DNA of 64,000 bases, taken from NCBI RefSeq assembly GCF_020510445.1, contig NZ_JAHBAG010000001.1, positions 3,510,501 through 3,574,500 on the forward strand. The letters are read 5' to 3'. This DNA is from Hydrogenophaga taeniospiralis (GTDB lineage Bacteria > Pseudomonadota > Gammaproteobacteria > Burkholderiales > Burkholderiaceae_C). A program made the translations under genes and the position numbers. This document shows, piece after piece, positions 8,515-50,794 of the stretch; within the stretch, counting starts at the first letter, position 1; each line of letters starts with the position of its first letter. The notes under the pieces were generated by a model. It was not told the DNA's origin, did no database searches, and saw only the letters and a list, made by a program, of their open reading frames with translations.

Positions 8515-9615
8515 ATGGAACCCAAACTGAACCAAGAAGTGATGGCCACCGCTGCCGCGCACGACGGACCGATCGAAAGCGACGCCGTCATCGTTGGCGC
8601 GGGTCCGGTGGGCCTGTTCCAGGTGTTTGAACTGGGCCTGCTTGAAATCAAGGCGCATGTGATCGACTCGCTGGCCTACCCCGGTGGCCAGCCGGTGGAG
8701 CTGTACCCCGACAAGCCCATCTACGACATCCCGGCGGTCCCGGTCTGCACCGGCCAGGAACTGACCGATGCCCTGCTCAAGCAGATCGAGCCTTTTGGCG
8801 CGACCTTCCACTTGGGGCAGGAAGTCACCACGGTTCAGAAGCAGGAAGACGGCCGTTTCTTCGTTGAGACGTCCAAGGGAACGAAATTCCTGACCAAGAC
8901 CATCTTCATCGCCGCCGGTGTGGGCGCCTTCCAGCCCCGCACGCTCAAGGTCGACGGACTGGAACGTTTCGAAGGTTCGCAGCTTTTCTACCGCGTGAAG
9001 AACCCAGCCGACTTCGCCGGCAAAAACCTCGTCGTGGTCGGCGGTGGCGACTCGGCACTCGACTGGACGCTGAACTTCGTGGCCGAGGGCCCAAACAAAG
9101 CCGAGAGTGTGATCCTGATCCACCGCCGCGACGGTTTCAAGGCCGCCCCGGCCAATGTGGCCAAGATGAAAGAGCTGTGCGATGCCTATGAGATGCAGTT
9201 CATCGTGGGCCAGGTCACGGGCTACGAAGAGAAAGACGGCAAGCTCACCGGCGTCAAAGTGACCGGTGCCGATGGCGTGACCCGCGTGGTGCCACTGGAC
9301 ATGTTGCTGGTGTTCTTCGGTCTGAGCCCCAAACTCGGCCCGATTGCCGAATGGGGCCTGGAGATCGAGCGCAAACAGCTCGTGGTCGACACCGAGAAGT
9401 TTTCCACCAGCATCCCCGGCATCTTCGCCGTGGGCGACATCAATACCTACCCCGGCAAGAAGAAGCTCATCCTCTCGGGTTTTCACGAATGCGCACTGGC
9501 GGCCTTTGGCGCGGTGCCGTTCATCTTCCCCGAGAAGAAGGTCTTCCTGCAGTACACCACCACGAGCCCGAAACTCCACAAGGTGCTGGGCGTCGAATCG
9601 CCTGTGTTTGACTGA
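8515..9615 (+). CDS. ferredoxin--NADP(+) reductase, thioredoxin-reductase-like
   Basis: 366 residues with an N-terminal FAD-binding motif ([11 protein letters not shown]), the conserved LAYPGGQP loop, a central NAD(P)-binding motif ([12 protein letters not shown]) and the FAD contact near the C-terminus ([17 protein letters not shown]). It lacks the CxxC redox pair of thioredoxin reductase. That defines the type 2 ferredoxin/flavodoxin-NADP reductase family. It starts 3 bp after fdxA and is almost certainly cotranscribed with it. Cytoplasmic homodimer by family. Confidence 0.9.
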
Positions 9616-9690
9616 GCCTCGCCATCGCTGGATGCGGCGACATTTTTTTGACAAAAATGCACCGCCCTCGGAAAACGGCAAAAATCACAC

Positions 9691-9696
9691 TATAAT
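9691..9696 (+). promoter_or_regulatory. -10 element of the tRNA-Asn promoter
   Basis: TATAAT at 9691-9696 stands 10 bp ahead of the mature tRNA 5' end, a normal distance. A perfect TTGACA at 9648-9653 is too far upstream (37 bp) to be its -35. At the correct spacing only a weak match near 9668 is seen. Confidence 0.6.
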
Positions 9697-9706
9697 TTGA
9701 GGCTGT

Positions 9707-9782
9707 TCCCTGATAGCTCAGTCGGTAGAGCGACGGACTGTTAATCCGCAGGTCCCTGGTTCGAGTCCAGGTCGGGGAGCCA
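9707..9782 (+). tRNA. tRNA-Asn (anticodon GUU)
   Basis: A complete cloverleaf with encoded CCA (9780-9782). The acceptor stem TCCCTGA pairs with the 3' segment TCGGGGA using one G-T pair. The anticodon GTT is at 9740-9742 in a CTGTTAA loop, and the T-loop reads GGTTCGAGTCC. The 3' 49 bases are duplicated at 50746-50794, so this gene is the attachment site of the prophage, and its 3' portion was restored by phage-borne sequence. Confidence 0.98.
9734..9782 (+). repeat. left attachment site core (attL), 49 bp
   Basis: From the anticodon stem through the CCA end of tRNA-Asn, 49 bases are identical to 50746-50794. Identity stops abruptly on both sides: A versus T before it, G versus A after it. 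A direct repeat of a tRNA 3' end flanking an integrase-bearing element is the standard signature of tyrosine-recombinase integration. Confidence 0.95.
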
Positions 9783-9800
9783 GAAATTCCGAACAGAATC

Positions 9801-9835
9801 AAGCACTTAGGCCAACCGGTCTAAGTGCTTTTTTC
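9801..9835 (+). terminator. rho-independent terminator after tRNA-Asn
   Basis: AAGCACTTAG (9801-9810) pairs perfectly with CTAAGTGCTT (9821-9830) and is followed by a T-run. It lies on the phage side of attL, so the integrated phage supplies a new terminator for the tRNA. The original terminator is displaced to 50804. Confidence 0.88.
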
Positions 9836-9862
9836 TTGCCTGTTGGAAGGTTTATTGGAAGC

Positions 9863-9877
9863 TTTCCAATATCCAGT
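9863..9877 (+). repeat. 15-bp repeat, candidate integrase arm site (left)
   Basis: TTTCCAATATCCAGT occurs here and again at 50611-50625, in the same orientation, at both prophage ends. In this copy it overlaps a 7-bp inverted repeat, ATTGGAA (9854-9860) with TTCCAAT (9864-9870). Placement 80-120 bp inside each att core fits integrase arm-type or excisionase sites; function is inferred. Confidence 0.5.
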
Positions 9878-9913
9878 GGTTCCCTGCGTTGGAAATGCGG
9901 CCATGCAGGCAGA

Positions 9914-10243
9914 ATGCCAGCCATGCACTACCGCGTAGAGATCCAGCGCCAGGCCGGCCGCAAGCTGGCCGAGCCCATCGTGGTGCACGGCCAGCTTGCC
10001 AGCTACGTGCGAGCGTTCGGTCAGCGATCCGTGGTGATGCTGCAGCTCACCGACACCGGGTCGGTGCACAACCACCCCTCTCTTTACAACCCCATGCTGA
10101 CCAAAGCCACGCACGAGGGCCTGCAGTTTTCGGGGATTGAGCACACGGGTGACGGCGCCTGGGTGGCTCAGTCATGGTGGTGTGCGTTCAGCACGGCCGA
10201 GGCCGCCACTGCGGCGCACGGGTCGGACCGGCCGGCTCGATGA
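9914..10243 (+). CDS. small phage-end protein of unknown function
   Basis: About 109 residues from the ATG at 9914 (or 106 from 9923). It reads as a compact soluble protein (YRVEIQRQAGRKLAEPIVVHG...), with no membrane segment or known motif recognised. It is the only rightward gene at the left prophage end, between the tRNA terminator and the end of the leftward late operon, and is convergent with that operon. Isolated genes in this position are often lysogen-expressed cargo, but no function is evident. Confidence 0.55.
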   Translation: MPAMHYRVEIQRQAGRKLAEPIVVHGQLASYVRAFGQRSVVMLQLTDTGSVHNHPSLYNPMLTKATHEGLQFSGIEHTGDGAWVAQSWWCAFSTAEAATAAHGSDRPAR

Positions 10244-32122: not shown

Positions 32123-32351
32123 GTTACGCGGTTGCGCGTGCGCGTAACCGCGTAACCCGCAGCCCGCCTAGCGAGTTGCACGGTTACGTGGTTACACCAA
32201 CACACAGGTACATGCACGTGCACGCACACACACGCGCCCGCCCGCCCACGCACACACGCACATGTATAGATGGGTCGCGTAACCGCGTAACCGCGTAACT
32301 CCCAGCGTCGTTGCTGGGTTTCGGAGTTACACCCCCGCGCAACCGCGTAAC
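32123..32351. repeat. iteron-like repeat cluster, candidate phage replication origin
   Basis: Six direct copies of GCGTAAC begin at 32142, 32150, 32277, 32285, 32293 and 32345, several in strict 8-bp tandem (GCGTAACC units), and one exact inverted copy GTTACGC is at 32123-32129. Degenerate copies (GTTACGT at 32183, GCGCAAC at 32337) fill the flanks. Between them lies a 60-bp alternating purine-pyrimidine CA/GT/GC tract. The cluster sits in a 275-bp gene-free gap next to the helicase and primase genes. Origin function is inferred. Confidence 0.6.
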
Positions 32352-32360
32352 CGTGAAATG

Positions 32361-37012: not shown

Positions 37013-37501
37013 ATGGGAACATCAACCATGGTTGATTTCAGAGATTACAGAGACCGCCTCAACTGGGCGATGAAAGAGGTCGGTACGACAGCGCAACGGC
37101 TCGCCGACCACATGGGCGTAAGCTACCAAGCCGTGAAGAAGGTGATGGATGGCAAAACCAAGGCATTCAGCGCCGCCAATAACGATGTAGCCGCAGCCTT
37201 TCTTGGCATCACAAGCCGCTGGCTTGCCACCGGCAAAGGCCCCATCAAAGCAGCCGACGCCATAGACGTTGAGGCGAGTTTCACACCACGAGAGCGCTCA
37301 CCCGCAGCGGGCGTGAGCGACATCAAACCACCGGACATCCGTCCAGCGTTCTTGCATGAAGACGCCTGGATTGCGGAGGCCATCCGAACCTTGCAGAGCC
37401 TTTCAGACCAAGACCGCCGAGCCGCTGTGCTCAATTTGCGGGTGTTTGTCGCAACGCTCGATAAACCCGGCGACGGCCAGGCTCTATCAGTGGCCGCATA
37501 A
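37013..37501 (+). CDS. CI-like prophage repressor (HTH, no S24 peptidase domain)
   Basis: 162 residues from the ATG at 37013, with GGAG close upstream; an alternative ATG at 37028 lies in a palindrome. The N-terminal HTH is plain (YRDRLNWAMKEVGTTAQRLADHMGVSYQAVKKVMDGKTKAF). The C-terminal region is short and helical, with no LexA/S24 Ser-Lys self-cleavage motifs, so induction probably does not use RecA-stimulated autocleavage of this protein. It stands divergent from cro, so it is the best lysogeny repressor candidate. Confidence 0.75.
   Translation: MGTSTMVDFRDYRDRLNWAMKEVGTTAQRLADHMGVSYQAVKKVMDGKTKAFSAANNDVAAAFLGITSRWLATGKGPIKAADAIDVEASFTPRERSPAAGVSDIKPPDIRPAFLHEDAWIAEAIRTLQSLSDQDRRAAVLNLRVFVATLDKPGDGQALSVAA
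37021..37036. promoter_or_regulatory. perfect 16-bp palindrome over the repressor start region
   Basis: ATCAACCATGGTTGAT is fully palindromic and contains the second in-frame ATG of the repressor gene. Its core AACCATGGTT differs by one base from the operator element AACCATAGTT / AACTATGGTT. It could be a further operator used for autoregulation. Confidence 0.5.
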
Positions 37502-37969: not shown

Positions 37970-38032
37970 TTTCCCCTCCTGAAAGTTGTGGCGTTCCAGC
38001 CGAACTTTACAGCACCATTTTACAAATAACTG

Positions 38033-38065
38033 AACCATAGTTGCACTCCATACTGAACTATGGTT
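38033..38065. promoter_or_regulatory. operator pair before the rightward operon and first DGR target
   Basis: AACCATAGTT (38033-38042) and AACTATGGTT (38056-38065) form a 10-bp inverted repeat with a 13-bp spacer, 35 bp ahead of the first target gene. They match the cro/repressor intergenic sites exactly, so the rightward operon is probably controlled by the same repressor. Confidence 0.72.
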
Positions 38066-38099
38066 AAATATCCCTCACGTCCACAAAACGGAGGGCCAG

Positions 38100-38606
38100 A
38101 TGGCACACCAAACCCCAGCCGCGGGCAGCGGCACCACCCCACCCGCGCCCGGCCAGTTCTGGCCCGAGCAAAACGCCTGGTACGCCGGGCCCGTGGCCTA
38201 TCCCGACGGCCGCGTGTTCGCCCTGCTGCTGCCGGCCGACTTCGCCGCCGTGGGCGAAAAGGCATGGGGCGAGTACGGCCGGAAGATCGAAGGCGCCGAC
38301 AGCCTGCACGACGGCCTGAGCAACACGCAGGCCCTGGCCGCCGCCAGCTCGCCCGCTGCGGCCGCCGTGATGGCCCACGGCGATGGCTGCTACCTGCCCA
38401 GCCGCGTCGAGGCCCTGCAGCTGTTCGCCACCCTGAAAGACCAGATCGGTGGGGGCTGGATATGGACGAGCACGCAGTCCTCGGCCGACGACGCCTGGTA
38501 CCAGCTCTTCAGCGGCGGCCTCCAGCACGCCTACTACAAGGGCTGTGAGTTCCGGGCCGTTCCAGTCCGCAGATTGATCCTTCAATCCTTCGGTACTTTG
38601 GCATGA
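38100..38606 (+). CDS. DGR target protein 1 (C-type-lectin-like fold, variable C-terminus)
   Basis: 168 residues with no signal peptide. It has the pattern of DUF1566/C-type-lectin-like DGR target proteins: FWPEQNAWYAG at the start, GEYGRKIEGADSLHDGLSNTQAL in the middle, CYLPSRVEALQLFATLKDQIG, then WTSTQ and the variable segment at residues 125-148, closing CEFRAVPVRR. Homologous along its length to the target proteins at 44615 and, more loosely, 43775. It lies 7.2 kb upstream of the TR and is read first in the rightward operon. Its ligand is unknown. Overlaps the next gene by ATGA. Confidence 0.85.
   Translation: MAHQTPAAGSGTTPPAPGQFWPEQNAWYAGPVAYPDGRVFALLLPADFAAVGEKAWGEYGRKIEGADSLHDGLSNTQALAAASSPAAAAVMAHGDGCYLPSRVEALQLFATLKDQIGGGWIWTSTQSSADDAWYQLFSGGLQHAYYKGCEFRAVPVRRLILQSFGTLA
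38472..38575 (+). repeat. DGR variable repeat 1 (VR1)
   Basis: 104 bp aligned without gaps to the TR at 45794-45897. In the first 78 bases there are 15 differences, all at TR adenines (changed to C, G or T). Beyond that only two differences remain (T to G and C to A), shared with the other VRs. Ends near the stop of the target gene, as DGRs require. Confidence 0.93.
38572..38587 (+). other. hairpin immediately downstream of VR1
   Basis: GATTGA (38572-38577), a TCCT tetraloop, and TCAATC (38582-38587) form a perfect 6-bp stem at the VR1 edge. In the Bordetella phage DGR a hairpin just past the VR is needed for efficient target recognition; this has the right place and shape. Confidence 0.6.
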
Positions 38607-38914
38607 ACCGCCACCTCACCCCCAGCGCGACCGTCGTGAACTGGCTCGCCGCCATCCTGCTTGTGGTGCTGTTTTTCGGCATCGTCCACCAGTTGGAGCG
38701 CGACTCGCAGGCCGCCCAAACGCTCGACGCGATGGACGCGGCCGTGGCCGCCACGGAGGCCCGCATCGACCGCGCAGCGCGCGCCCTGTGCCGCGCCGAA
38801 CTGGGCACCGGCAGCGTGGCCGCATGGACGCCAGAAGGCCGGCTGGTGTGCACACCGCCCACCGAGCCGCGCACCACCGGCGCGGCCGTGGCATGGACGG
38901 GGAGCGAGCGATGA
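38603..38914 (+). CDS. small single-span membrane protein
   Basis: 103 residues, ATGA-coupled to DGR target 1. One N-terminal membrane helix (VVNWLAAILLVVLFFGIVHQL) is followed by a helical region and a polar tail with two cysteines. N-in anchoring with the bulk outside the cytoplasm or the reverse cannot be decided. Co-translation with the target protein makes a functional link plausible. Confidence 0.55.
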   Translation: MNRHLTPSATVVNWLAAILLVVLFFGIVHQLERDSQAAQTLDAMDAAVAATEARIDRAARALCRAELGTGSVAAWTPEGRLVCTPPTEPRTTGAAVAWTGSER

Positions 38915-39387
38915 GCCACCCGACCCAACACCCCCGCCGCGCCGAGCTGCTGCGCCGCATCGACGCCGCCGAGTTCGCCGCCATGCAGCAGCCCGCCAAA
39001 GTCGCCCCCGTCAAGCGACTGAGCGAAGGCACCCGCAGCGCCCAGGCCATCCAAGAGGGCTTGCGCACTGGTGCCATCCGCCAACAGCCGGCGCCACAGC
39101 CGCAGCACCGGCCCATGACGGCCGACCGCTACCTGCTGCGCGACAACGCACCCACGTTGCGCGCGGTGCGAGAGCTGGACTCCCTGGGGGAGCACTACCG
39201 GGCTGCGTGCAGGCGTGTGGACGCCGCTCTACCCACCGTCAGCCAATCGGCACACGACCGGCTGGCCGCCCAAAAGGCCGCGGCGGAGGAGCTGGACCGG
39301 TCGCGCCGGCGGCGCACGCACGTCCTGCTGGCCGTGTATTTCGCTGCCCTGGCCGCCCTGCTCTTCGCCGCCGTACAGAAGGCCTGA
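38911..39387 (+). CDS. phage protein with C-terminal membrane anchor
   Basis: 158 residues from the ATG at 38911, coupled by ATGA to the preceding membrane protein. Long helical soluble part (AVRELDSLGEHYRAACRRVDAAL, LAAQKAAAEELDRSRRRRTH) and a single C-terminal membrane helix (VLLAVYFAALAALLFAAVQ) after a basic cluster, a tail-anchored pattern. No family recognised. Confidence 0.55.
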   Translation: MSHPTQHPRRAELLRRIDAAEFAAMQQPAKVAPVKRLSEGTRSAQAIQEGLRTGAIRQQPAPQPQHRPMTADRYLLRDNAPTLRAVRELDSLGEHYRAACRRVDAALPTVSQSAHDRLAAQKAAAEELDRSRRRRTHVLLAVYFAALAALLFAAVQKA

Positions 39388-39390
39388 GCC

Positions 39391-39678
39391 ATGCCCACCC
39401 ACCTCACCGAGCAGCAGCTGCGTGCCGCCTGGGCCGCCATGCGCACACGCCGCTGCCTGAGCGCCTGGCCCAACAGCTTCGACGCGGTGATGGCCGACCC
39501 GAGGCGCGGGCAGCTGGTGCGCCTGGAAGCGCTGGCCGCAGCCAGGGCCGCCGCGCGGCGACTGACCAGGCCGTGCCAACCGGTGAACCCGATCGAGCAC
39601 CACGCGCCACCGCCGCCCCATCCACAGCCCTACCGGCTGGACCGCAAGAAAGCCGCCGCGGGCGACCGCGACGACTGA
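39391..39678 (+). CDS. small phage protein of unknown function
   Basis: 95 residues (MPTHLTEQQLRAAWAAMRTRRCLSAWPNSFDAVMADP...). The N-terminal 60 residues look like a compact helical domain; the C-terminus is His/Pro-rich. Three bases separate it from the preceding gene, so it belongs to the same operon. Unknown function. Confidence 0.5.
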   Translation: MPTHLTEQQLRAAWAAMRTRRCLSAWPNSFDAVMADPRRGQLVRLEALAAARAAARRLTRPCQPVNPIEHHAPPPPHPQPYRLDRKKAAAGDRDD

Positions 39679-39721
39679 CCCATCACCACCACCAACCCCA
39701 ACCCACCCAACCGGAGGAACC

Positions 39722-40249
39722 ATGCTCAAACCCAAGATGAAAACCACCATTGGCCTGCTCGCTGCAGCGCTCGCCGCGTCGTCGGCGGCTGCTCAGGACG
39801 GCGACACGCCGCGCCCCAACCCCACGCCCGTGCCGTGCATTCAGTGCAACGTCAGCACGCCGCCGAACACGGCCATCAGCAGCCCGGTGGCTACTGGCAA
39901 TGGAAACGCGGCGGCCATCGCCAACACCACCGCCACCAAAACCAGCGCGGCGGGCGGCGATGCGGCGGCCGATGCGTCCAACACCATGACCATCGGTGGC
40001 GACACCAGCAAATCACTCGTGGCCGTTTTCCCGGCGCCGAGCACAGCCGTGGTACCCGCAGCCCAGCACTGCATCGTCACCCGCTCCAGCGCCGGCGGCC
40101 TGGGGTGGAACCTCATCCAGGCCGCCCACAGCGAACAGCACAGCGACCCGGTGTGCACCCTTATGGCGCTGCATGCCCGCGCCACCTCCCCGGCCCAGGC
40201 CGACCTCCTGTTCACGGAAATCCTGCGGCGCCTCGCCGCCGGGCAGTGA
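39722..40249 (+). CDS. exported phage protein of unknown function
   Basis: 175 residues with a good GGAGGAA ribosome binding site and an N-terminal signal peptide (MKTTIGLLAAALAASSAAAQ) ending at a likely AQ-D cleavage site. The mature part has a Thr/Asn/Ala-rich, low-complexity repeat-like stretch (NGNAAAIANTTATKTSAAGGDAA) followed by a small folded region with two cysteines. It should act in the periplasm or outside. Not recognised. Confidence 0.55.
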   Translation: MLKPKMKTTIGLLAAALAASSAAAQDGDTPRPNPTPVPCIQCNVSTPPNTAISSPVATGNGNAAAIANTTATKTSAAGGDAAADASNTMTIGGDTSKSLVAVFPAPSTAVVPAAQHCIVTRSSAGGLGWNLIQAAHSEQHSDPVCTLMALHARATSPAQADLLFTEILRRLAAGQ

Positions 40250-40274
40250 CACAGCGACGAACCCGGAGAACCCC

Positions 40275-40484
40275 ATGCCACAAGTCCACATGACATTCAC
40301 CGACACGCCAAGCGGCGGCGTGGCGGTGCACAGCGACTTCCAGCCCGCCGTGGGCAAGCCCTGCAGCCCGGCCCAGGCCGCGGCGCTGGAAATCTACAAC
40401 CGCACCCGCAAGCAGTGGGGCGTCGAGGACGTGCACGCGCACGCCGAGACCGCCAACACCGCGCAACCCGTGGCCGGGGCCTGA
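40275..40484 (+). CDS. small phage protein of unknown function
   Basis: 69 residues (MPQVHMTFTDTPSGGVAVHSDFQPAVGKPCSPAQAAALEIYNRTRKQWG). The short strand-strand-helix core resembles small proteins common in the accessory region of betaproteobacterial phages. Good GGAGAA ribosome binding site. Function unknown. Confidence 0.55.
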   Translation: MPQVHMTFTDTPSGGVAVHSDFQPAVGKPCSPAQAAALEIYNRTRKQWGVEDVHAHAETANTAQPVAGA

Positions 40485-40487
40485 GCC

Positions 40488-41120
40488 ATGCGCGGAGCCC
40501 TCGCCCCCATCACCATCGCAGCGCTCAGGCACCTGAGCGCGAACGGCGCCACCCCGCTGTCCACCATCAAGGCCGCCATTGCCGGTCTGGAGACCAATAC
40601 CATGAACAATCTGGTGCAACTCGGCCACGCGCTGCGCACCGAGACCGGCCTGTGCATCACGCCCAGGGGCCGCGCCAAGCTGCGGGGGATCGACAACCCC
40701 GACCAAGCGGCGCCCGCCGCCAAGCCAGCGCCCGCAGCACCCCAGCTCAGCAACAACGAGCTGGACGCTGCCATCCTCGCCACGCTGGGCGCAGCCGGGC
40801 GGGGCCTGCCGCTCGCCACGCTCGCCCACCGTGTGGGCCAGCCCATCAACGTGGTGCGGCCGGCCGTGACGATGCTCTCGCAACGCGGGCGCCTGCACTC
40901 CAGCGCCAGCAAGCCGCCGCGCTACAGCTTGCCCGAGGCCGTGGGCCGCACCGCCACGCGCCCGACAGGCACCTACGCCGGCACCGAGCTGCAGCGCAAC
41001 CCCGGCATCGGCCCCGAACGCTACGCCGCGTTCGATTTGCCGAGCCGCATGGGAAACCGGCTGCATTACCCCGATGGGCGGGTGACCTCGCTCGAACACC
41101 ACCTCGGCCAACCAGCCTGA
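40488..41120 (+). CDS. phage protein with winged-helix-like segments
   Basis: 210 residues. Two regions look like winged helix-turn-helix units: ITIAALRHLSANGATPLSTIKAAI...NNLVQLGHALRTETGLCITPRGRAKL and LDAAILATLGAAGRGLPLATLAHRVGQPINVVRPAVTMLSQRGRLHS. A DNA-binding or regulatory role in the accessory operon is plausible. The C-terminus has a separate conserved-looking patch (YAAFDLPSRMGNRLHYPDGRVT). No named family. Confidence 0.5.
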   Translation: MRGALAPITIAALRHLSANGATPLSTIKAAIAGLETNTMNNLVQLGHALRTETGLCITPRGRAKLRGIDNPDQAAPAAKPAPAAPQLSNNELDAAILATLGAAGRGLPLATLAHRVGQPINVVRPAVTMLSQRGRLHSSASKPPRYSLPEAVGRTATRPTGTYAGTELQRNPGIGPERYAAFDLPSRMGNRLHYPDGRVTSLEHHLGQPA

Positions 41121-41148
41121 TTCACCAACCGAAACCATCAAGGAAACC

Positions 41149-41769
41149 ATGCGCATCTATCTCAGCGGCCCCATGAGCGGCATTACTGACAACAACTTCC
41201 CCGAGTTTCATCGTTGGGCCGCTGCCCTGCGCTCAACCGGCTTCGATGTCGTCAGCCCTGCGGAGATTCAAGAGGCTGGAACGTGGGAACTGTGCCTGCG
41301 CGCCGACCTGAGCGAGCTTTGCACCTGCGATGGCATCGCGCTGATGCCCGGGTGGGAGGGCAGCAAGGGCGCGCACCTTGAACTGCACGTCGCCCACCGG
41401 CTCGGCATGAAGGTCATGCACCTCCCGCTGCAGTTCGACCTTGTGACGCATCTGCACCGCCAGATCGCATTCAGCGAGCGCACCTTCGGCCCTGGCGACC
41501 GGACGGCCGGCGTGTGCGACCACATCCGCAAGGAACTGCGCGAGGTTCAGGACGATGCAGCGGCTGGCCTGCCGACGCTGGCCGAGTGGGTTGACGTGAT
41601 CATCCTGGCCTTCGATGGCGCATGGCGCTCCGGCGCAACGCCCGAGCAGATCACCAAAGCCATTGTTGCAAAGCAATCCAAGAACGAGGGCCGCAAGTGG
41701 CCGGACTGGCGCACAGCCGATCCGACAAAGGCCATCGAGCACGACCGCACATCGGAAACGATGGCCTAA
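41149..41769 (+). CDS. DUF4406 + DUF550 fusion, nucleotide-processing protein
   Basis: 206 residues. The N-terminal 95 residues match DUF4406 (MRIYLSGPMSG, FPEFHRWAAALRSTGFDVVSPAE, LMPGWEGSKGAHLELHVA), related to nucleoside deoxyribosyltransferase folds. The C-terminal part matches DUF550 (HIRKELREVQDDA, LAEWVDVIILAFDGAWRSGATPEQI), a MazG-like dNTP pyrophosphohydrolase family with the E-x-x-E and D-V acidic residues. Phages use such enzymes to adjust nucleotide pools. The joining of the two domains here is in a single open frame. Confidence 0.75.
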   Translation: MRIYLSGPMSGITDNNFPEFHRWAAALRSTGFDVVSPAEIQEAGTWELCLRADLSELCTCDGIALMPGWEGSKGAHLELHVAHRLGMKVMHLPLQFDLVTHLHRQIAFSERTFGPGDRTAGVCDHIRKELREVQDDAAAGLPTLAEWVDVIILAFDGAWRSGATPEQITKAIVAKQSKNEGRKWPDWRTADPTKAIEHDRTSETMA

Positions 41770-41792
41770 ACCCCCACCCCCGAGACCACCCC

Positions 41793-43778
41793 ATGACCAC
41801 CGAAACCCAAGAAACCACCACCCTCACGGCCAACGACCCCGCCGTGGGCTCCACCGTGCAGATCAGGCACGATCTGACCAACGAAGTCGACGCCCCACAC
41901 AAGTCCGCCGGGCTCCACGGCGTGATCACCGGCCGCGACCCGTTAGGCGGCTACATGGTGAAGGTTGGCAACCAGAAGCCAACGCGCCTTTTCCGAGCCG
42001 ACTTCATCGTCACCAGCGCCCCCAGCGCCGAGCAGCTGGACAGTGCGAACGCCAGCACGCCCAGCAGCGCCACCACCGCCGCCGAGCCCGAACCCATCCG
42101 CCTCGTCAACGCCCACCCGCTCGACGCCATCAACAGCACCACCAACCCCCGGCGCCGCCGCGGGCTCGACCTGGACAGCCTGCGCGCCCTGGCCGACAGC
42201 ATCTTGCAGCACGGCCTGGGCAACCCGATCCTGGTGCGCCCGCTGCCCGCTGGCCGCGTGGTCGAAACCAGCGGCATGGACCCACGCCCGGCCTACGAAG
42301 TGATCGCCGGCGAGCGCCGCTGGCGCGCGGCCCAGCTGGCCGAGCTGAGCGCCATGCCCATGTTTGTGCGCCACATGGACGACCGGGCCGTGCTCGAAAT
42401 GCAGCTGGTCGAAAACATCGAACGCGAAGACCTCGACCCCATGGAAGAGGCCGAAGGCTTCGCCCTGCTGCGCGACGAGCTGGGCTACACCGTGGAACAG
42501 ATCGCCGAGCGCATGGGCAAAGGCCGCGGCACCAGCTACGTGCGCAAGCGCATGAAGCTGCTCGACCTCACCCCCGCCAGCCGGGAAGCCATGTACGACG
42601 GCGTGCTGCAGCTCAGCACCGGCCTCGCCGTGGCCCACTACCCCGCCGAAACCCAGGCCAAGGCCGTGAAGATCATCAAGGCCATGGAGGCCACCGGCAC
42701 CGACGGCCGGCGCATCCCCGCGCCCTTTCGCACCGTGGTGCTGGAGCTGTACCGCAAGCTCAACACCCTGCTCAAAACCGCCGCCTTCGACACGCAGGAC
42801 CCGGGCCTCGTGTTCAACGCCGGCCCCTGCAGCACCTGCCCCAAGCGCAGCCAGGCCGCGGCCGACCTGTTCGCCGAATCGCGCGACGCTGGGGATGACA
42901 GCTGCCTTGACACCGCCTGCTGGGAGTCCAAGAAAGCCGCCCACGTGCAGCGCGTGCACGCCGACGCCAAGGCCCGCGGGCTGGAAGTGATCGACGGGGC
43001 CGAGGCCGCAAAGCTGGTGCCCAGCCCGCACAGCAGCTACGTGATGGGCTACACCCCGCTCACCGCCACCGCCTACACCGAGCTGGGTGACGACGAGACG
43101 ATGCGCGTCGTCACCTACGAAGACGCCCTGCGCGCCCAGGGCCGCAAAGCGCCCAAGCCCGTGATCGTGATCAACCCCCACACCAACAAGGCCGTGGAAA
43201 TGATCCCCGACGAGGTGGCCCAGAAGCTGGTGCCCACCGAGGGTGACGACGAAGGCGACAAGCCGGGCCCCAAGGGCGCGCCGCCGCCCCACGCAGCACC
43301 CGTGCCCGAAGAGCACCGAGCTCTGAGGCACTTGGACGTGCGCCGCGCCCTGTTTTACCGCCTGTTCGACGGCGTGCGCAACCGCCCGCGCACCGTGGAA
43401 GACCTGCGCCTGGCCGCCATCGCCATCATGTGCCAGACCGAAGACGCACACCCCCACGTCGAAGCCTTCATGGGCTGGGAAGAGGCCGTGGACGCGGACG
43501 AGCCCGAGGAATACCTGCGCGAGAAGATCGGAGCGCTCGACGCCGACCAGCTCGGCCAGTTGATCACCATGGCCGCCATGGAACAGGCCCTCGATTGGTA
43601 CACCGGCAACTTGTACAACGTCGAGCAGGAAGCCGCGTTCTTCGAAGCCCAGGGCATCGACGTACTGGCCGTGCGCGACAAGGTGCTGGAAGACCTGGAG
43701 CGGCAGCAGGCGGCGGCCGGGGGCGGGGGAAGCGCCGAGGGCGACGAGCAGGATGAAGACGCGGAGGAAGCGGCATGA
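41793..43778 (+). CDS. ParB/Srx-type nuclease-domain protein, large phage version
   Basis: 661 residues. After a leader of about 105 residues it has ParB N-terminal motifs: DLDSLRALADSILQHGLGNPILVRP, then AYEVIAGERRWRAAQLA with the GERR box, and QLVENIEREDLDPMEEAEGF. The HTH region EQIAERMGKGRGTSYVRKRMKLLDL follows. A cysteine motif (CSTCPKRS... C...C) and a long C-terminal domain are extra to chromosomal ParB. No ParA gene is nearby, so a partition role is doubtful. Phage versions may act as nucleases or regulators. Overlaps the next gene, a DGR target, by ATGA. Confidence 0.8.
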   Translation: MTTETQETTTLTANDPAVGSTVQIRHDLTNEVDAPHKSAGLHGVITGRDPLGGYMVKVGNQKPTRLFRADFIVTSAPSAEQLDSANASTPSSATTAAEPEPIRLVNAHPLDAINSTTNPRRRRGLDLDSLRALADSILQHGLGNPILVRPLPAGRVVETSGMDPRPAYEVIAGERRWRAAQLAELSAMPMFVRHMDDRAVLEMQLVENIEREDLDPMEEAEGFALLRDELGYTVEQIAERMGKGRGTSYVRKRMKLLDLTPASREAMYDGVLQLSTGLAVAHYPAETQAKAVKIIKAMEATGTDGRRIPAPFRTVVLELYRKLNTLLKTAAFDTQDPGLVFNAGPCSTCPKRSQAAADLFAESRDAGDDSCLDTACWESKKAAHVQRVHADAKARGLEVIDGAEAAKLVPSPHSSYVMGYTPLTATAYTELGDDETMRVVTYEDALRAQGRKAPKPVIVINPHTNKAVEMIPDEVAQKLVPTEGDDEGDKPGPKGAPPPHAAPVPEEHRALRHLDVRRALFYRLFDGVRNRPRTVEDLRLAAIAIMCQTEDAHPHVEAFMGWEEAVDADEPEEYLREKIGALDADQLGQLITMAAMEQALDWYTGNLYNVEQEAAFFEAQGIDVLAVRDKVLEDLERQQAAAGGGGSAEGDEQDEDAEEAA

Positions 43779-44578
43779 GCCTCCTGCACGAAATCCAGAT
43801 CGTCCAGCGCAACGCCGGGGAAGCCGCCGTCATCCGCAACCTGGAACGCCAGGGACTCATTGCACCGGCAGCGCCCAACCCAACCACCACCCTCGTCGGC
43901 CAGATCCTCGTCATGGCCACGCTGCTGGAGCAAGCACTGCGCGTGGTGAAGAACGTCGAGGCCGAGGGCGGCGACGAAGGCGAGCTGCTGCAGGCCCTGA
44001 TCGACCAGGGCGAAGCCGCCATCGCCACCGTGCTCACGCAGCACGCCATGCAACCCATCACCTCACCCACCACCTCCACCAAAGGAACCACCATGACCGT
44101 CGCCACCATCACCCCGCCCGCACCGCTCACCACCTGGCAAGGCCAGGGCGGCACCTACATCGGCATAAAGGCCACGCCCGACGGCAAGGCCTTTCACGTC
44201 GTTGCAGCCATCGGCACTCGCGAGCTCGAAGACCAGCAGTGGGGCGAATACGGCAAGCGCATCACCGGCGCCGACAGCTACCACGATGGCCGCGCCAACA
44301 CCGAGGCCATGGCCGCCGCCGGCAGCGCGCTGGCCCAGAAGATTCTGGCGCTCGACATCGACGGCCACACCGATTGGGCCTTGCCCAGCCAGGCCGACGG
44401 CCACCTGCTCGCCGCCAACGCCAAGCACCTGATGCAGCAAGACGAGTACTACTGGCTCAGCACGCAGTTCTCGGCCGACAACGCCTGGTACCAGTACTTC
44501 AACTACGGCTACCAGGACACCGGCCTCAAGGACTGTGAGTTCCGGGCCGTTCCAGTCCGCTGCATTCAGATCGTCTGA
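43775..44578 (+). CDS. DGR target protein 2 (N-terminal helical domain plus C-type-lectin-like variable domain)
   Basis: 267 residues if translated from the ATG overlapping the ParB-like stop. Residues 1-105 are a helical domain unlike the other targets. From residue 107 (MTVATITPPAPLTTWQGQGG) it resembles target 1 (WGEYGKRITGADSYHDGRANTEAM). The ATG of residue 107, at 44093, has AAAGGAA at ideal distance, so a 161-residue short form of just the lectin-like domain may also be made. Variable positions fall in residues 230-253, ending CEFRAVPVRC. No signal peptide. The VR has 10 adenine-specific changes from the TR. Confidence 0.83.
   Translation: MSLLHEIQIVQRNAGEAAVIRNLERQGLIAPAAPNPTTTLVGQILVMATLLEQALRVVKNVEAEGGDEGELLQALIDQGEAAIATVLTQHAMQPITSPTTSTKGTTMTVATITPPAPLTTWQGQGGTYIGIKATPDGKAFHVVAAIGTRELEDQQWGEYGKRITGADSYHDGRANTEAMAAAGSALAQKILALDIDGHTDWALPSQADGHLLAANAKHLMQQDEYYWLSTQFSADNAWYQYFNYGYQDTGLKDCEFRAVPVRCIQIV
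44462..44560 (+). repeat. DGR variable repeat 2 (VR2)
   Basis: Gap-free alignment to the TR. Ten differences in the variable core, all at TR adenines, plus the same two non-adenine differences as VR1 and VR3 in the 3' tract. Identity ends at CGC (44560); the sequence then departs from the TR earlier than in VR1 and VR3. Confidence 0.92.
44566..44578 (+). other. hairpin immediately downstream of VR2
   Basis: TCAGA (44566-44570), loop TCG, TCTGA (44574-44578): a perfect 5-bp stem spanning the stop codon of target 2. Same placement relative to the VR as the VR1 hairpin. Short, so moderate confidence. Confidence 0.5.
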
Positions 44579-44614
44579 CCTTCGTTCCTTTGTTCCTTTT
44601 TTCTGATCACCACC

Positions 44615-45220
44615 ATGTCCGCCATCACCATCCCCATTGAGTTTGAACTCTCCCCGCGCTCACGCGCTGTCATGGACGCGCTCAGCCGCGCGCTCGACCC
44701 GAAGTTCGTCAGCGCCGACGAATCCACCGCCGAGCCGGCAGGCGACCCCATTGCCCACTCGCTCGCCGCCCCGGTGGCGGCCGGCGCCTTCTGGCCCGAA
44801 CACGACGCCTGGTACGCCGGGTTGCAGATGACCCCAGGCGGCCGCTACTGGCACGCGCTGGTGCCCAAGGAACACATCAACACGCTCACCGACGTGAAGT
44901 GGGGCGGCTACGGCACACAGATCGAGGGTGCGGCCGACATGTACGACGGGCTGGCCAACACCCAGGCCATGAGCACCGCAGGCCTTGAGCTTGCCCAGCG
45001 TGTGCAGGCCCTTGGCAAAGGCATGTATCTGCCCTCGCGCGCCGAGGTGTTGCTGATGTTCGCCACGCTCAAGAGCGTGATCGGCGACGGTGTGGTGTGG
45101 ACCAGCACGCAGTACTCGGCCAACAACGCCTGGTGCCAGTTCTTCTACTACGGCGACCAGGGCACCAACAGCAAGGGCTGTGAGTTCCGGGCCGTTCCAG
45201 TCCGCAGATTGTTCCTTTGA
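44615..45220 (+). CDS. DGR target protein 3 (C-type-lectin-like fold, variable C-terminus)
   Basis: 201 residues. An N-terminal extension of about 55 residues is followed by the shared target domain: FWPEHDAWYAGLQMTPGGRYW, WGGYGTQIEGAADMYDGLANTQAM, MYLPSRAEVLLMFATLKSVIG, WTSTQ, variable residues 165-188, and CEFRAVPVRRLFL. It is closest to target 1. It is the nearest target to the Avd, TR and RT genes. No signal peptide or membrane segment, so secretion would need another route or virion incorporation. Ligand unknown. Confidence 0.87.
   Translation: MSAITIPIEFELSPRSRAVMDALSRALDPKFVSADESTAEPAGDPIAHSLAAPVAAGAFWPEHDAWYAGLQMTPGGRYWHALVPKEHINTLTDVKWGGYGTQIEGAADMYDGLANTQAMSTAGLELAQRVQALGKGMYLPSRAEVLLMFATLKSVIGDGVVWTSTQYSANNAWCQFFYYGDQGTNSKGCEFRAVPVRRLFL
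45107..45210 (+). repeat. DGR variable repeat 3 (VR3)
   Basis: 104 bp aligned to the TR without gaps. Ten differences in the variable core, every one at a TR adenine, plus the two shared non-adenine differences in the 3' tract. One change (TAC to TGC) introduces a cysteine next to the conserved AW motif. The 3' flank has only a weak inverted repeat, GTTC (45211-45214) with GAAC (45227-45230). Confidence 0.93.
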
Positions 45221-45249
45221 TCCTTTGAACCCCTGAGCGAAACAGCATC

Positions 45250-45615
45250 ATGGTCATGCACACCCAGTTGCCCATTCACAAAACCGGCAGCGACCTCTTG
45301 GGGATCGCCACGCTGATCCTGGTCAAGATGAAGCGCGACTACAAGCGCGCCGTGGGCGAGAAGATCGTCGCCAACTGCTCCGACATGCTGAACCTCATGG
45401 CGCTGGCCAACGCCACGCGGGGCCGGCAGCGGGCGGAGCACCTTCGGGGCATCCTGGCGCACCAGCGCGCGGCCACCATGTGGCTGCGCGTAGCGCTGGA
45501 CCTGAAGGCCGTGGCGCCGGCCCACTGGGGCAAGGCCATCCAGATGCTGGAGAGCGTCAGCAAGCAAGCCACCGGCTGGCTCGCCAAAACCAACGAACCG
45601 GCGCCTGCAGCATGA
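45250..45615 (+). CDS. avd: Avd-like accessory protein of the diversity-generating retroelement
   Basis: 121 residues, the usual size of Avd. Sequence is helical throughout with clustered basic residues (LVKMKRDYKRAVGEKIVANCSDML, ATRGRQRAEHLRGILAHQRAATMWLRVALDL), consistent with the four-helix-bundle family that forms a pentameric, positively charged barrel and binds RT and template RNA. It lies between target 3 and the TR, as in the Bordetella phage order (target-VR, avd, TR, RT). Its stop overlaps an ATG of the RT frame as ATGA. Confidence 0.83.
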   Translation: MVMHTQLPIHKTGSDLLGIATLILVKMKRDYKRAVGEKIVANCSDMLNLMALANATRGRQRAEHLRGILAHQRAATMWLRVALDLKAVAPAHWGKAIQMLESVSKQATGWLAKTNEPAPAA

Positions 45616-46994
45616 CGAGCAAGCTCCTCACGCCCGCGCGCTTTGATCTGAATCTGGTCGCGCCCCTGGCTCACAAGGCCACGGACATGCACACCACAGA
45701 CACCGCAGCGCCCGCGCTGGCCCGGTCTGGTGCAATTGCCCCGCTGATCGGCCTGAGCGGCCATCTCCAGAGCGATGCGGATCGCGCGAACCGACGCAGT
45801 ACTCGGCCAACAACGCCTGGTACCAGAACTTCAACAACGGCAACCAGAACACCAACAACAAGGACTGTGAGTTCCGTGCCGTTCCCGTCCGCAGATTCAG
45901 CACCCTATTCATTCGACGGCCTGGTGCAGGCCTACCTCGACTGCCGCCGCCACAAGCGCAACACCTCCAGCGCCCAGCGGTTCGAGGCCCACCTGGAGCG
46001 CAACCTGGTGAGCCTGCACGCCGAGCTGTGCAGCGGCCAGTATCGCCCCGGCCGGTCCATCTGTTTCGTGGTCACGCGGCCCAAGGTGCGCGAGGTGTGG
46101 GCGGCCGACTTCCGCGACCGCATCGTGCACCACCTGTTGCACAACCACATTGCGCCGCGCTTCATTGCCCGGTTCGACGCCGGCAGCAGCGCCTGCATTC
46201 CGGGGCGCGGCACGCTGTACGCGGCCGAGCGCGTGGAGGCCGGCGTGCGCTCGGTCTCGCACAACTGGAGCCGGCCAGCGTGGTACCTCAAGATGGACCT
46301 GGCCAACTTCTTCGTTGCGATCGACAAGCGCGTGCTGCTGCGCCAGATCGCCCGCCACGTGCCTGAGCCCGAATGGTTCAGCCTGGCCGAGACCATCCTC
46401 ATGCACGACCCGCGCACCGACGTGGACGTGCGCGGCAGCGCCCAGCTGCTCGCCCGGGTGCCGGCGCACAAGAGCCTGTTCAACGCGCCGGCCGACACGG
46501 GCTTGCCCATCGGCAACCTATCAAGCCAGTTTTTCGCCAACGTGCACCTGAACGACCTTGACAAGTTCGTGAAGCACCAGGTGCGCGCGCGGTACTACAC
46601 CCGCTACGTCGACGACTTCGTTCTGATCCACGAAAGCCCGCAGTGGCTCAACGCTGCCCGCGAGCGCATTGAGGCCTGGTTGCCCGAGCGGCTGGGCGCG
46701 CACGTGAACCCGCGCAAGACCATCCTGCAGCCCGTGGAACGCGGCGTGGACATGGTGGGCCACGTCATCAAACCGTGGCGGCGCATCACCCGCCGCCGCA
46801 CCCTGCACCAGGCCCTACAGCGGCTCGACGCCACCCCGGCCGAGCAGTTGCACCAGTCCGGCAACAGCTACCTCGGCCTCGTGCGCCAGGCCACCCACAG
46901 CCACCACGACCAGGCACTGATCGCGCGCCTGCTGCTCGACCGCGGGCATGCGGTAGCTGGCGATCTCACCAAGATTTTCAGGAAGGCAGTATGA
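45612..46994 (+). CDS. DGR reverse transcriptase
   Basis: The RT domain is complete: YRPGRSICFVVTRPKVREVWAADFRDRIVHHLL (RT1-2 region), LKMDLANFFVAI (RT3), LPIGNLSSQFF with IGNLSSQ at 300-306 (RT4, the DGR-type pattern in place of QGxxxSP), the catalytic YVDD at 332-335 (46605-46616), and a C-terminal GHVIKPWRR. Start choice is uncertain. The ATG at 45612 overlaps the avd stop (460 residues) but then reads through the TR in another frame. GTG codons at 45867 and 45876, the latter with AAGGA 11 bases upstream, would give about 372 residues, nearer the family norm. Confidence 0.92.
   Translation: MTSKLLTPARFDLNLVAPLAHKATDMHTTDTAAPALARSGAIAPLIGLSGHLQSDADRANRRSTRPTTPGTRTSTTATRTPTTRTVSSVPFPSADSAPYSFDGLVQAYLDCRRHKRNTSSAQRFEAHLERNLVSLHAELCSGQYRPGRSICFVVTRPKVREVWAADFRDRIVHHLLHNHIAPRFIARFDAGSSACIPGRGTLYAAERVEAGVRSVSHNWSRPAWYLKMDLANFFVAIDKRVLLRQIARHVPEPEWFSLAETILMHDPRTDVDVRGSAQLLARVPAHKSLFNAPADTGLPIGNLSSQFFANVHLNDLDKFVKHQVRARYYTRYVDDFVLIHESPQWLNAARERIEAWLPERLGAHVNPRKTILQPVERGVDMVGHVIKPWRRITRRRTLHQALQRLDATPAEQLHQSGNSYLGLVRQATHSHHDQALIARLLLDRGHAVAGDLTKIFRKAV
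45794..45897 (+). repeat. DGR template repeat (TR)
   Basis: 104-bp adenine-rich sequence between avd and the RT core, matching three variable repeats. In the target frame it has nine AAC codons, the codon that gives most amino-acid variety when its adenines vary and never yields a stop. Of 29 adenines in the first 78 bases, 20 differ in at least one VR; no other base does. Its 3' tract differs from all VRs at two positions, a likely IMH* versus IMH distinction. Presumably transcribed to template RNA on the plus strand. Confidence 0.94.
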
Positions 46995-47500
46995 CCCGCA
47001 AGACCACCCCCTACGGCCGCCGCCTGGCCCGCTTGCGCGCTGCAGGCGTCAGCGAGAAGCGCGACGGCATCACCACGGCCCGCATGCACAACACGCGGCT
47101 GACCCCCGCCGAGGTTGAGCGCATCCTCGCGCCCTGCCACAGGGCGGTCAAGGCCTTCCAGACCGGCCTCGCCAGCCATGCGCAGTGGGTCGTGCTGTGC
47201 ACCGCCGGGCACGTGGCCGAGGCCATTGAAGACGGCGGCGTTATTCGTGGCCAGCGCGAGATCATCGAAGAGGCCACCGCCATGCTCGACGCCATTGGCG
47301 AGCGCGCAGGCCGCAGCGCCGGGGCCTGGAAGCCAATCACCCTGCACGGCCCGGAGATCACCGCCCTCGCCGACCTCGTGGCCGCCCACAGCCGCCAGGT
47401 GCGCGAGCTGACCTACGGCGAATACACCCGCGCCGCCGACAAGGCCGTGGCCCGCGTGGCCACCGACGGCGGGCAGGTGTTTCGCATGGAGCCCGCATGA
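46991..47500 (+). CDS. phage protein of unknown function downstream of the RT
   Basis: 169 residues, ATGA-coupled to the RT stop. Basic N-terminus (MTRKTTPYGRRLARLRAAGVSEKRDG), then a helical domain (LTPAEVERILAPCHRAVKAFQTGLASHAQWVVLCTAGHVAEAIED). Similar small proteins occur in accessory operons of Burkholderiales phages. Not a recognised DGR component, although translational coupling to the RT makes that worth testing. Confidence 0.55.
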   Translation: MTRKTTPYGRRLARLRAAGVSEKRDGITTARMHNTRLTPAEVERILAPCHRAVKAFQTGLASHAQWVVLCTAGHVAEAIEDGGVIRGQREIIEEATAMLDAIGERAGRSAGAWKPITLHGPEITALADLVAAHSRQVRELTYGEYTRAADKAVARVATDGGQVFRMEPA

Positions 47501-48867: not shown

Positions 48868-50007
48868 ATGCCACCCATGGGCCGCCGCCGCAAAGACACC
48901 GCCTCAGACCTTGAGCCCAGGGTCTACCTGCGCTCGGGCGCCTACTACTACGTGCACCGCACCGGCAAGTGGGAAGGCCTGGGCAAAGACAAGGCCGCGG
49001 CGAACGAGAAGGCGCGCCTGTTCAACGACCCTGCCGGGCTGCAGGGCACGCTGGTGCACTGGCTTGACCTGTTCCTGGTGCACTGCGAGGCCCGTGTGAA
49101 GGCCGGCAGCATGGCCCAGCGCACACTCGACGACTACACCCAGGCCATACGGGGCACGCCCGACCGCGAGGCCAAGGGCAAGCGCACGGCCACCGAGGGC
49201 AAGGCCGGCCCGCTGCGCGTGTTTTTCGCGCCGCCCATCACCCCGCTGGACGTGACGCCGGCCATGGTGAACGAATACCTTGAGATCGGCGCGCAGATGG
49301 GCCGCCCCGTGCCCGCCAACCGCGAGAAGGCGGCGCTCTCCAGCTGCTTCGGCTGGCTGTGCCGCAACAGCAAGGTGCCGGGCCTGCTGATCAACCCATG
49401 CCTGCGCGCCTCGGGCATCCAGCGCAACCGCGAGACCAGCCGCGAGCGCTATGTGACGCACGAGGAATACCGCGCCGTGTGGGCCGAGGCGCACCTGAGC
49501 ACGCGGCTGCTGATGGAGATCACCTACCGCACCCTGCAGCGGCCAGAGAGCGACGTGATCCACTGGGACACCACCGTGCTCAGCCGCAACGCCGCCGGCA
49601 AGCGCGTGCTCAAGTTCAAGCAATGCAAGACCGGAAAAGTGATGATGATCGAGGTCGACGACCAGCTCGAGGCGCTGATCCAGCAGAGCCTGGGAGACGT
49701 GCGCTCGCTGCGCCAACCACTGGTGCGCAACCGCGACGGCCACGCCTACACCTACGACGGCATCAGCGCCAACCTCAAGAAAGCCATCTCCCGCGCCAAC
49801 GCCAAGCGCAAGGCCGCTGGCCAAGCGACCATCCCCAGCTTCGGGTTCAGGGACCTGAAGGGCAAGGGCGCCACCGACATGTGGCTCGCCGGCGTGCCGC
49901 TGGAAGAGATCCAGGCCCTGTGCGGCCACGGCGACAAGACCACCACCGAGATCTACGTCAAAGCGCGCTGGCGCGAGACTGTGACGCCCAACCGGGTGGC
50001 GATGTAA
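48868..50007 (+). CDS. int: tyrosine-recombinase integrase
   Basis: 379 residues from the ATG at 48868. The N-terminal arm domain (MGRRRKDTASDLEPRVYLRSG) and the SAM-like core-binding domain precede the catalytic domain. The likely catalytic residues are R225 (TLQRPESD), H354 (CGHGDKTTTEIY) and nucleophile Y363. The usual H-x-x-R box reads R-D-L-K (R328-K331), a variant I recall from related phage integrases. It integrates at the 3' end of tRNA-Asn. Lies 739 bp inside the right att core. Confidence 0.9.
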   Translation: MPPMGRRRKDTASDLEPRVYLRSGAYYYVHRTGKWEGLGKDKAAANEKARLFNDPAGLQGTLVHWLDLFLVHCEARVKAGSMAQRTLDDYTQAIRGTPDREAKGKRTATEGKAGPLRVFFAPPITPLDVTPAMVNEYLEIGAQMGRPVPANREKAALSSCFGWLCRNSKVPGLLINPCLRASGIQRNRETSRERYVTHEEYRAVWAEAHLSTRLLMEITYRTLQRPESDVIHWDTTVLSRNAAGKRVLKFKQCKTGKVMMIEVDDQLEALIQQSLGDVRSLRQPLVRNRDGHAYTYDGISANLKKAISRANAKRKAAGQATIPSFGFRDLKGKGATDMWLAGVPLEEIQALCGHGDKTTTEIYVKARWRETVTPNRVAM

Positions 50008-50745: not shown

Positions 50746-50794
50746 CGGACTGTTAATCCGCAGGTCCCTGGTTCGAGTCCAGGTCGGGGAGCCA
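50746..50794 (+). repeat. right attachment site core (attR), 49 bp
   Basis: Exact copy of the tRNA-Asn 3' portion at 9734-9782, without the 5' half of the tRNA. This is the displaced host sequence, still followed by the original terminator. Confidence 0.95.

Follow-up and report, generated by a model that had tools for sequence, protein, structure and literature searches.

A prophage of Hydrogenophaga taeniospiralis carries a reverse transcriptase (RT) cassette, which we analysed in a 64,000-nt stretch of contig NZ_JAHBAG010000001.1, referred to as a whole as the window. Judged by its sequence, the cassette is a genuine diversity-generating retroelement (DGR) with one template repeat (TR), a DGR-type RT, the accessory gene avd and three target genes bearing variable repeats (VRs), all on the plus strand. 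The part of the TR bounded by TR-VR identity spans 45794-45892, and comparison with it places VR1 at 38472-38570, VR2 at 44462-44560 and VR3 at 45107-45205, with 15, 10 and 10 of the 29 template adenines changed, respectively. The differences are almost confined to template adenines, as in other DGRs; of the 70 non-A template positions, 2 are changed in each VR, at the same two sites in all three. The VRs lie at the ends of target 1 (38100-38606, 168 aa, lectin-like), target 2 (43775-44578) and target 3 (44615-45220, 201 aa), the last of which is the one target that was structure-modelled and is predicted to adopt a C-type-lectin fold. The earlier note had described a prophage-borne DGR with one TR and three targets, two beside the cassette and one ~7 kb away, and the TR and VRs were found where it had put them. 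A genome-wide search (5.28-Mb assembly, 3 contigs) gave 31 TR matches, four with E < 1e-24 and the remainder at E 0.078 or worse, and no further TR-like copy or extra target elsewhere in the genome.

The less ordinary part of the locus, absent from the earlier note, is a structured RNA before the TR. The region 45599-45796 on the plus strand is a full-length member of the Rfam family RT-15 (RF03018; 123.5 bits against a gathering cut-off of 82) that ends 2 nt into the TR. The window's genome has one RT-15 match and 14 control genomes have none. Behind the TR we found no Rfam match in the window that would point to a structured spacer RNA of the BPP-1 type between TR and RT. The leader is predicted to contribute to two helices. 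In helix a, the leader strand CUGAAUCUG (45648-45656) is complementary to 45892-45900 at the TR 3′ end, a pairing seen by complementarity, covariation and fold; its 9-mer has no second occurrence in the window. In helix b, defined by the RT-15 structure and alignment, 45658-45663 pairs with 45784-45789 just before the TR. Between the two helices lies a nearly invariant G (45657; A in locus L084), the candidate priming nucleotide. An unconstrained minimum-energy fold of 45640-45905 contains all 9 pairs of helix a and all 6 of helix b. The CUGAAUCUG strand is unpaired in the Rfam structure line; because the Rfam model ends at the TR start, it does not include helix a, and its name gives no function. 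The RT-numbered RNAs reportedly come from work by Weinberg and colleagues in Nucleic Acids Research (NAR) in 2017. Our literature search, thin on subscription papers, found no paper treating RT-15 together with a DGR.

We compared the cassette with 81 loci related through the RT (7 phage loci, 18 genome loci and 56 viral contigs), examining all of them except L089. In 76 of these 80 loci, as in the window, scans for A-biased repeats detected TR and VR; the four without a call comprise L039, which duplicates L017, and L025, L037 and L041, whose sequence is cut off <0.75 kb ahead of the RT. In L041 the stretch directly before the RT, where the contig begins (1-147), is VR-like, with few adenines, rather than TR-like; a VR may have overwritten the TR there or become fused to it. 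In all 12 clade relatives scanned with Rfam (7/7 and 5/5), the RT-15 match stops 0-7 nt inside the TR.

Both helices are supported by covariation. For the comparison we used 56 rows whose RTs have <95% nucleotide identity to one another, with near copies and short loci set aside (L017, L025, L039, L062, L063, L066 and L068). Helix a pairs at a mean of 8.05 of 9 positions, against 7.05 with permuted partners, and 0 of 5000 permutations reached as high; the observed value is lowered by the L055 row, which was cut one base off. On the alignment, 93.3% of the cells of helices a and b are paired, compared with 24-43% in slid controls. Changes on both sides of a pair occur in 10 of 15 pairs (6/9 in helix a, 4/6 in helix b), and at most 2 of 500 shuffles, which do not keep relatedness, reach any of the helix measures. 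Mapped on an RT tree of 61 rows (a quick tree with unresolved forks), helix a has undergone at least 21 changes from one Watson-Crick pair to another. The pairing also extends to loci outside the 56 rows, with 9 of 9 pairs in L017, L068 and L037, 8 in L062, and 7 in L025, L063 and L066. Helix a is specific to the template: TRs pair with the leader at 8.16 of 9 positions and VRs at 6.14, and at the two outer pairs the fractions are 0.97 and 0.76 for TRs against 0.34 and 0.25 for VRs. As a separate observation, at the sixth base of the TR strand of helix a the VRs of 20 of 58 loci (L045, L069 and others) share a base unlike that of the TR, often C in the TR and T in the VR, which leaves an A-C mismatch in the TR helix.

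The RNA structure and the copied unit coincide at both ends. TR-VR identity starts ~5 nt after helix b and stops at the first pair of helix a. On the 3′ side (58 loci, 124 VRs; the first base of helix a counted as 0), non-A positions are 93-100% identical between -40 and 0; beyond this the matches are 1/5, 98/120, 1/8 and 53/109, falling to 16/122 at +11. On the 5′ side (118 VRs), identity rises from 0.19 at +4 after helix b to 0.36 at +5, 0.85 at +6 and 0.96 at +7. In 51 of 56 loci a gap of 4-7 nt separates helix b from the beginning of the TR (overall range 2-52).

Using RT-15 alone as a predictor, we searched 349 genomes of the family and obtained 13 matches, 7 of them over the cut-off including the window. 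Five of the six new over-cut-off loci have a TR directly after RT-15, two VRs, and helix a with 7, 7, 9, 8 and 9 of 9 pairs, and four of these five have a YxDD motif within 3 kb. One of the six below-cut-off matches (L106-L111) was followed, and no TR or VR was found there (L118, around L106).

Variation at adenine positions among related loci, which the earlier note had called for, is present. Among 20 pairs of loci whose RTs differ by at most 5%, 10 are identical in the compared VRs and 10 differ, almost only at template adenines. In L073 versus L078, 20 of 31 and 15 of 32 template adenines differ in the two VRs and 0 of 69 other positions in each, with 0 and 3 differences per 300 positions upstream of the VRs. 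L045 and L047 differ at 13/27 and 1/25 template adenines and at 1/64 and 0/62 other positions (upstream, 0/300); L043 and L044 differ at 19/39 template adenines and 1/65 other positions; and L069 and L070 differ at a single adenine. Because the VRs of close relatives differ almost only at template adenines, the sequences indicate that this RT clade is active in VR diversification.

Two or three targets are the rule in this clade. None of the 53 loci that reach 9.5 kb or further upstream (near copies and the window included) has fewer than two VRs: 38 have two and 15 three, or 39 and 14 after correction, because the third VR of L085 is a split VR. Every VR found lies upstream of the RT and on the RT strand. 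The earlier note had called multi-target cassettes a minority; this agrees with a survey of all DGRs, where several VRs occur in 28.6% of 948 (PMC6642488), but does not apply to this clade. The RT matches 5 of the 67 genomes of the window's genus, counting the window's own, and two of the other four matches represent close relatives; L120, one of the two, likewise carries a third VR, which lies 7.4 kb upstream of its RT. In a tree of target cores, the window's remote target pairs with target 3. The remote targets appear to have originated several times rather than to descend as a single old orthologous group: 12 changes are needed for 15 rows, in a test with few columns and many unresolved forks in which 11 of 500 shuffles were as low.

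Taken together, these observations suggest that the DGR probably uses its one TR to rewrite three lectin-like genes at their ends, with its template RNA predicted to be gripped at both ends by the RT-15 leader before the template. The leader would bring the two template ends together, with helix a marking the start of copying and helix b the stop. Its CUGAAUCUG strand would lie on the TR 3′ end like an annealed primer, and the junction purine beside this strand, or a neighbour, could prime cDNA synthesis. Copying would stop a few nt short of helix b, and the adenine-mutated cDNA would then replace a VR by retrohoming. Priming at the junction G is proposed by analogy, one analogue being the retrons and the other the BPP-1 DGR. 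For BPP-1, internal cDNA priming from the spacer behind the TR is described in PMC12875486, which also covers the reconstitution of that DGR in E. coli.

Several observations weigh against this reading. In 16 of 56 rows, pair 5 of helix a is an A-C mismatch, and at this pair the VRs match the leader better than the TRs do (0.84 vs 0.71). The two non-A differences common to all three window VRs lie 6 and 15 nt before helix a. Among the new RT-15 loci, L114 has a TR and VRs and no YxDD motif in the 3 kb behind RT-15, and L117 has an over-cut-off match and no detectable TR or VR. RT-15 could instead act in transcript regulation or processing.

The prophage (9734-50794, 41 kb) is inserted in a tRNA-Asn gene and bounded by a 49-bp direct repeat (9734-9782 and 50746-50794). 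Its minus strand encodes terminase, head protease, tape measure, tail fibre, endolysin and primase, and its plus strand the repressor (37013-37501), the targets, avd, the RT and an integrase (48877-50007, profile match), with a Cro-like gene running divergently from the repressor. Lambda-like phages generally express their repressor-integrase arm early or in lysogeny. The three targets could be virion receptor-binding proteins as in BPP-1, made early and displayed on the particle, to which we give slightly less than an even chance. The lectin fold is consistent with such a role, and tail fibre and receptor-binding proteins are among the structural neighbours of the modelled target. In DGR clades 1, 4 and 6, likewise, most targets in viruses carry a tail-protein annotation (PMC8144416). 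However, the targets lie between repressor and integrase, on the strand opposite to the terminase, tail and lysis genes, rather than in a tail or late operon, and the prophage's own tail-fibre gene has no VR. The arrangement also recurs among relatives: a Phage_integrase match is present in 19 of 24 relatives' records, and in all 19 there is one downstream of the RT, 2.3-13.6 kb away, on the RT strand in 15 (2 of the 19 have a second, upstream match). Given their place on the repressor-integrase arm, outside the tail operon, the targets are as likely to work within the infected or lysogenic cell as on the virion.

An alternative for the RNA itself is an ordinary BPP-1-style DGR: the true spacer would be concealed behind the TR, within the first RT codons, with RT-15 only regulating or processing the transcript. 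The known systems lend this some weight. The BPP-1 DGR (Rauchvirus BPP1, L096) has an RT, Avd, a TR and a VR at the end of its target gene, as does the window, and its change is adenine-specific (17 of 23 A, 0 other). It primes from the spacer behind the TR (PMC12875486), where it has the Rfam Phage_DGR RNA, and the related DGR of Bacillus phage BalMu-1 (L097; RT 33% identical, TR and VR as in the window) has RT-14 RNA in that position. Unlike the window, with RT-15 before the TR and three VRs on the repressor-integrase arm, L096 has one VR in the fetched stretch, adjacent late genes and its TR right after avd, and the DGRs of a BPP-1 relative, BalMu-1 and Bise adjoin tail or lysis genes. L098 gave no Rfam match, and in these three loci only (L096-L098) the best runs of the TR 3′ end with spacer or upstream sequence are 6.5-8 weighted pairs on either side. 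Within the window's clade, no excess synonymous constraint was found in RT codons 1-60 that would betray a spacer in the RT gene, the test covering aligned codons and the 20-55 nt between the TR and the first of them lying outside it. Moreover, six loci (L017, its copy L039, L062, L063, L066 and L068) have 0.56-1.2 kb between TR and RT and still have RT-15 before the TR (Rfam was run on four; the leader of L063 was found by comparison), so the RNA unit appears independent of the adjoining RT codons. In L017 the interval (8859-9941) contains a 360-aa open reading frame (MTVKHVVSVSGGKDS...) with a putative PAPS-reductase-like motif. The constraint test and the separated loci, together with the template specificity of helix a and its position where TR-VR identity stops, make a hidden spacer unlikely. 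That the window cassette is a silent relic is very improbable: TR and VRs have two fixed non-A differences and we found no near-identical copy of the prophage among the RT relatives for direct comparison (nearest RT ~75% identical), but the RT, Avd and three target frames are open, both helices are intact and the relatives are active.

Among the closest described systems is Burkholderia phage Magia (L010), which has an RT of the same clade (59% identical), RT-15, and lectin-fold targets beside avd and ~7 kb away. Its announcement names the DGR, places IMH regions in genes 47 and 57 and leaves the RNA unmentioned (PMC7883833); against these two targets, our repeat scan finds three VRs. In the tentaclin phage DGRs nd4 and nd12, one TR serves two lectin-fold targets (PMC10743442), compared with three related proteins with C-terminal VRs in the window. 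The terms 'diversity-generating' and 'retroelement' are absent from the main text of the Cruim01 and Haboob papers (PMC11256456, PMC11846083).

The RT and Avd assignments rest on profile and structure-database matches. Avd (45250-45615) matches phrog_3206 (E 9e-16) and is below the cut-off in Pfam and NCBIfam. The RT, homologous over 45924-46994, matches phrog_1423, and among solved sequences 8ub7 is the nearest to it (E 1.5e-33; next, E 5e-11), consistent with a DGR-type enzyme. Membership among the retrons was considered on account of their 2′-OH priming and is not supported: the Retron St85 RT model scores 49.6 bits against a cut-off of 235, chains named retron Ec83, Ec86 or Ec78 RT match at E 0.13 or worse, and two chains named 'Retron-type reverse transcriptase' (E 1e-8 and 8e-7) fall far behind 8ub7. 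The RT start codon is unsure. In the window, the interval from the TR to the RT homology contains no ATG; the closest in-frame candidates are GTG 45867 and GTG 45876, inside the TR 3′ end, and then GTG 45924, and a start further upstream is conceivable. In 61 of 72 loci no stop interrupts the RT frame across the TR, and the RT start may overlap the template. An RT translated from ATG 45612, at the end of avd, and on across the TR would meet an in-frame stop in 11 of 72 loci, so that the RT starts later in at least those 11. Target 2 would have 267 aa if it starts at the ATG overlapping the stop codon of the ParB-like gene (41793-43778), its first possible start; a second in-frame ATG at 44093 is preceded by a ribosome-binding-like AAAGGAA (read by eye). 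A search for plasmid relatives of 38000-47000 gave no match. Elsewhere in the prophage, clustered GTTACGCGGTT-like repeats, direct and inverted, lie at 32123-32360 between the primase-helicase and the minus-strand late genes.

The template RNA of this DGR is a new, testable variant. Tentatively, and with somewhat less than an even chance, it may represent a second RNA architecture for mutagenic retrohoming in a clade of temperate proteobacterial phages. In this architecture a template loop of ~100 nt would be held between two helices of a 5′ leader, which supplies a built-in primer-like strand on the TR 3′ end; the junction purine would prime through its 2′-OH, helix b would end the cDNA, and the helices alone would fix the edited unit. 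The edited products, two or three free-standing lectin domains, would be expressed from the repressor-integrase arm and diversified to act within infected or lysogenic cells. This proposes a function for the orphan Rfam RNA RT-15, as the leader of a DGR template RNA, with a covariation-backed structure that matches both ends of the copied unit. It also provides a compact cassette that allows priming to be studied separately from the RT coding sequence, and points to a class of phage DGRs with targets outside the tail operon.

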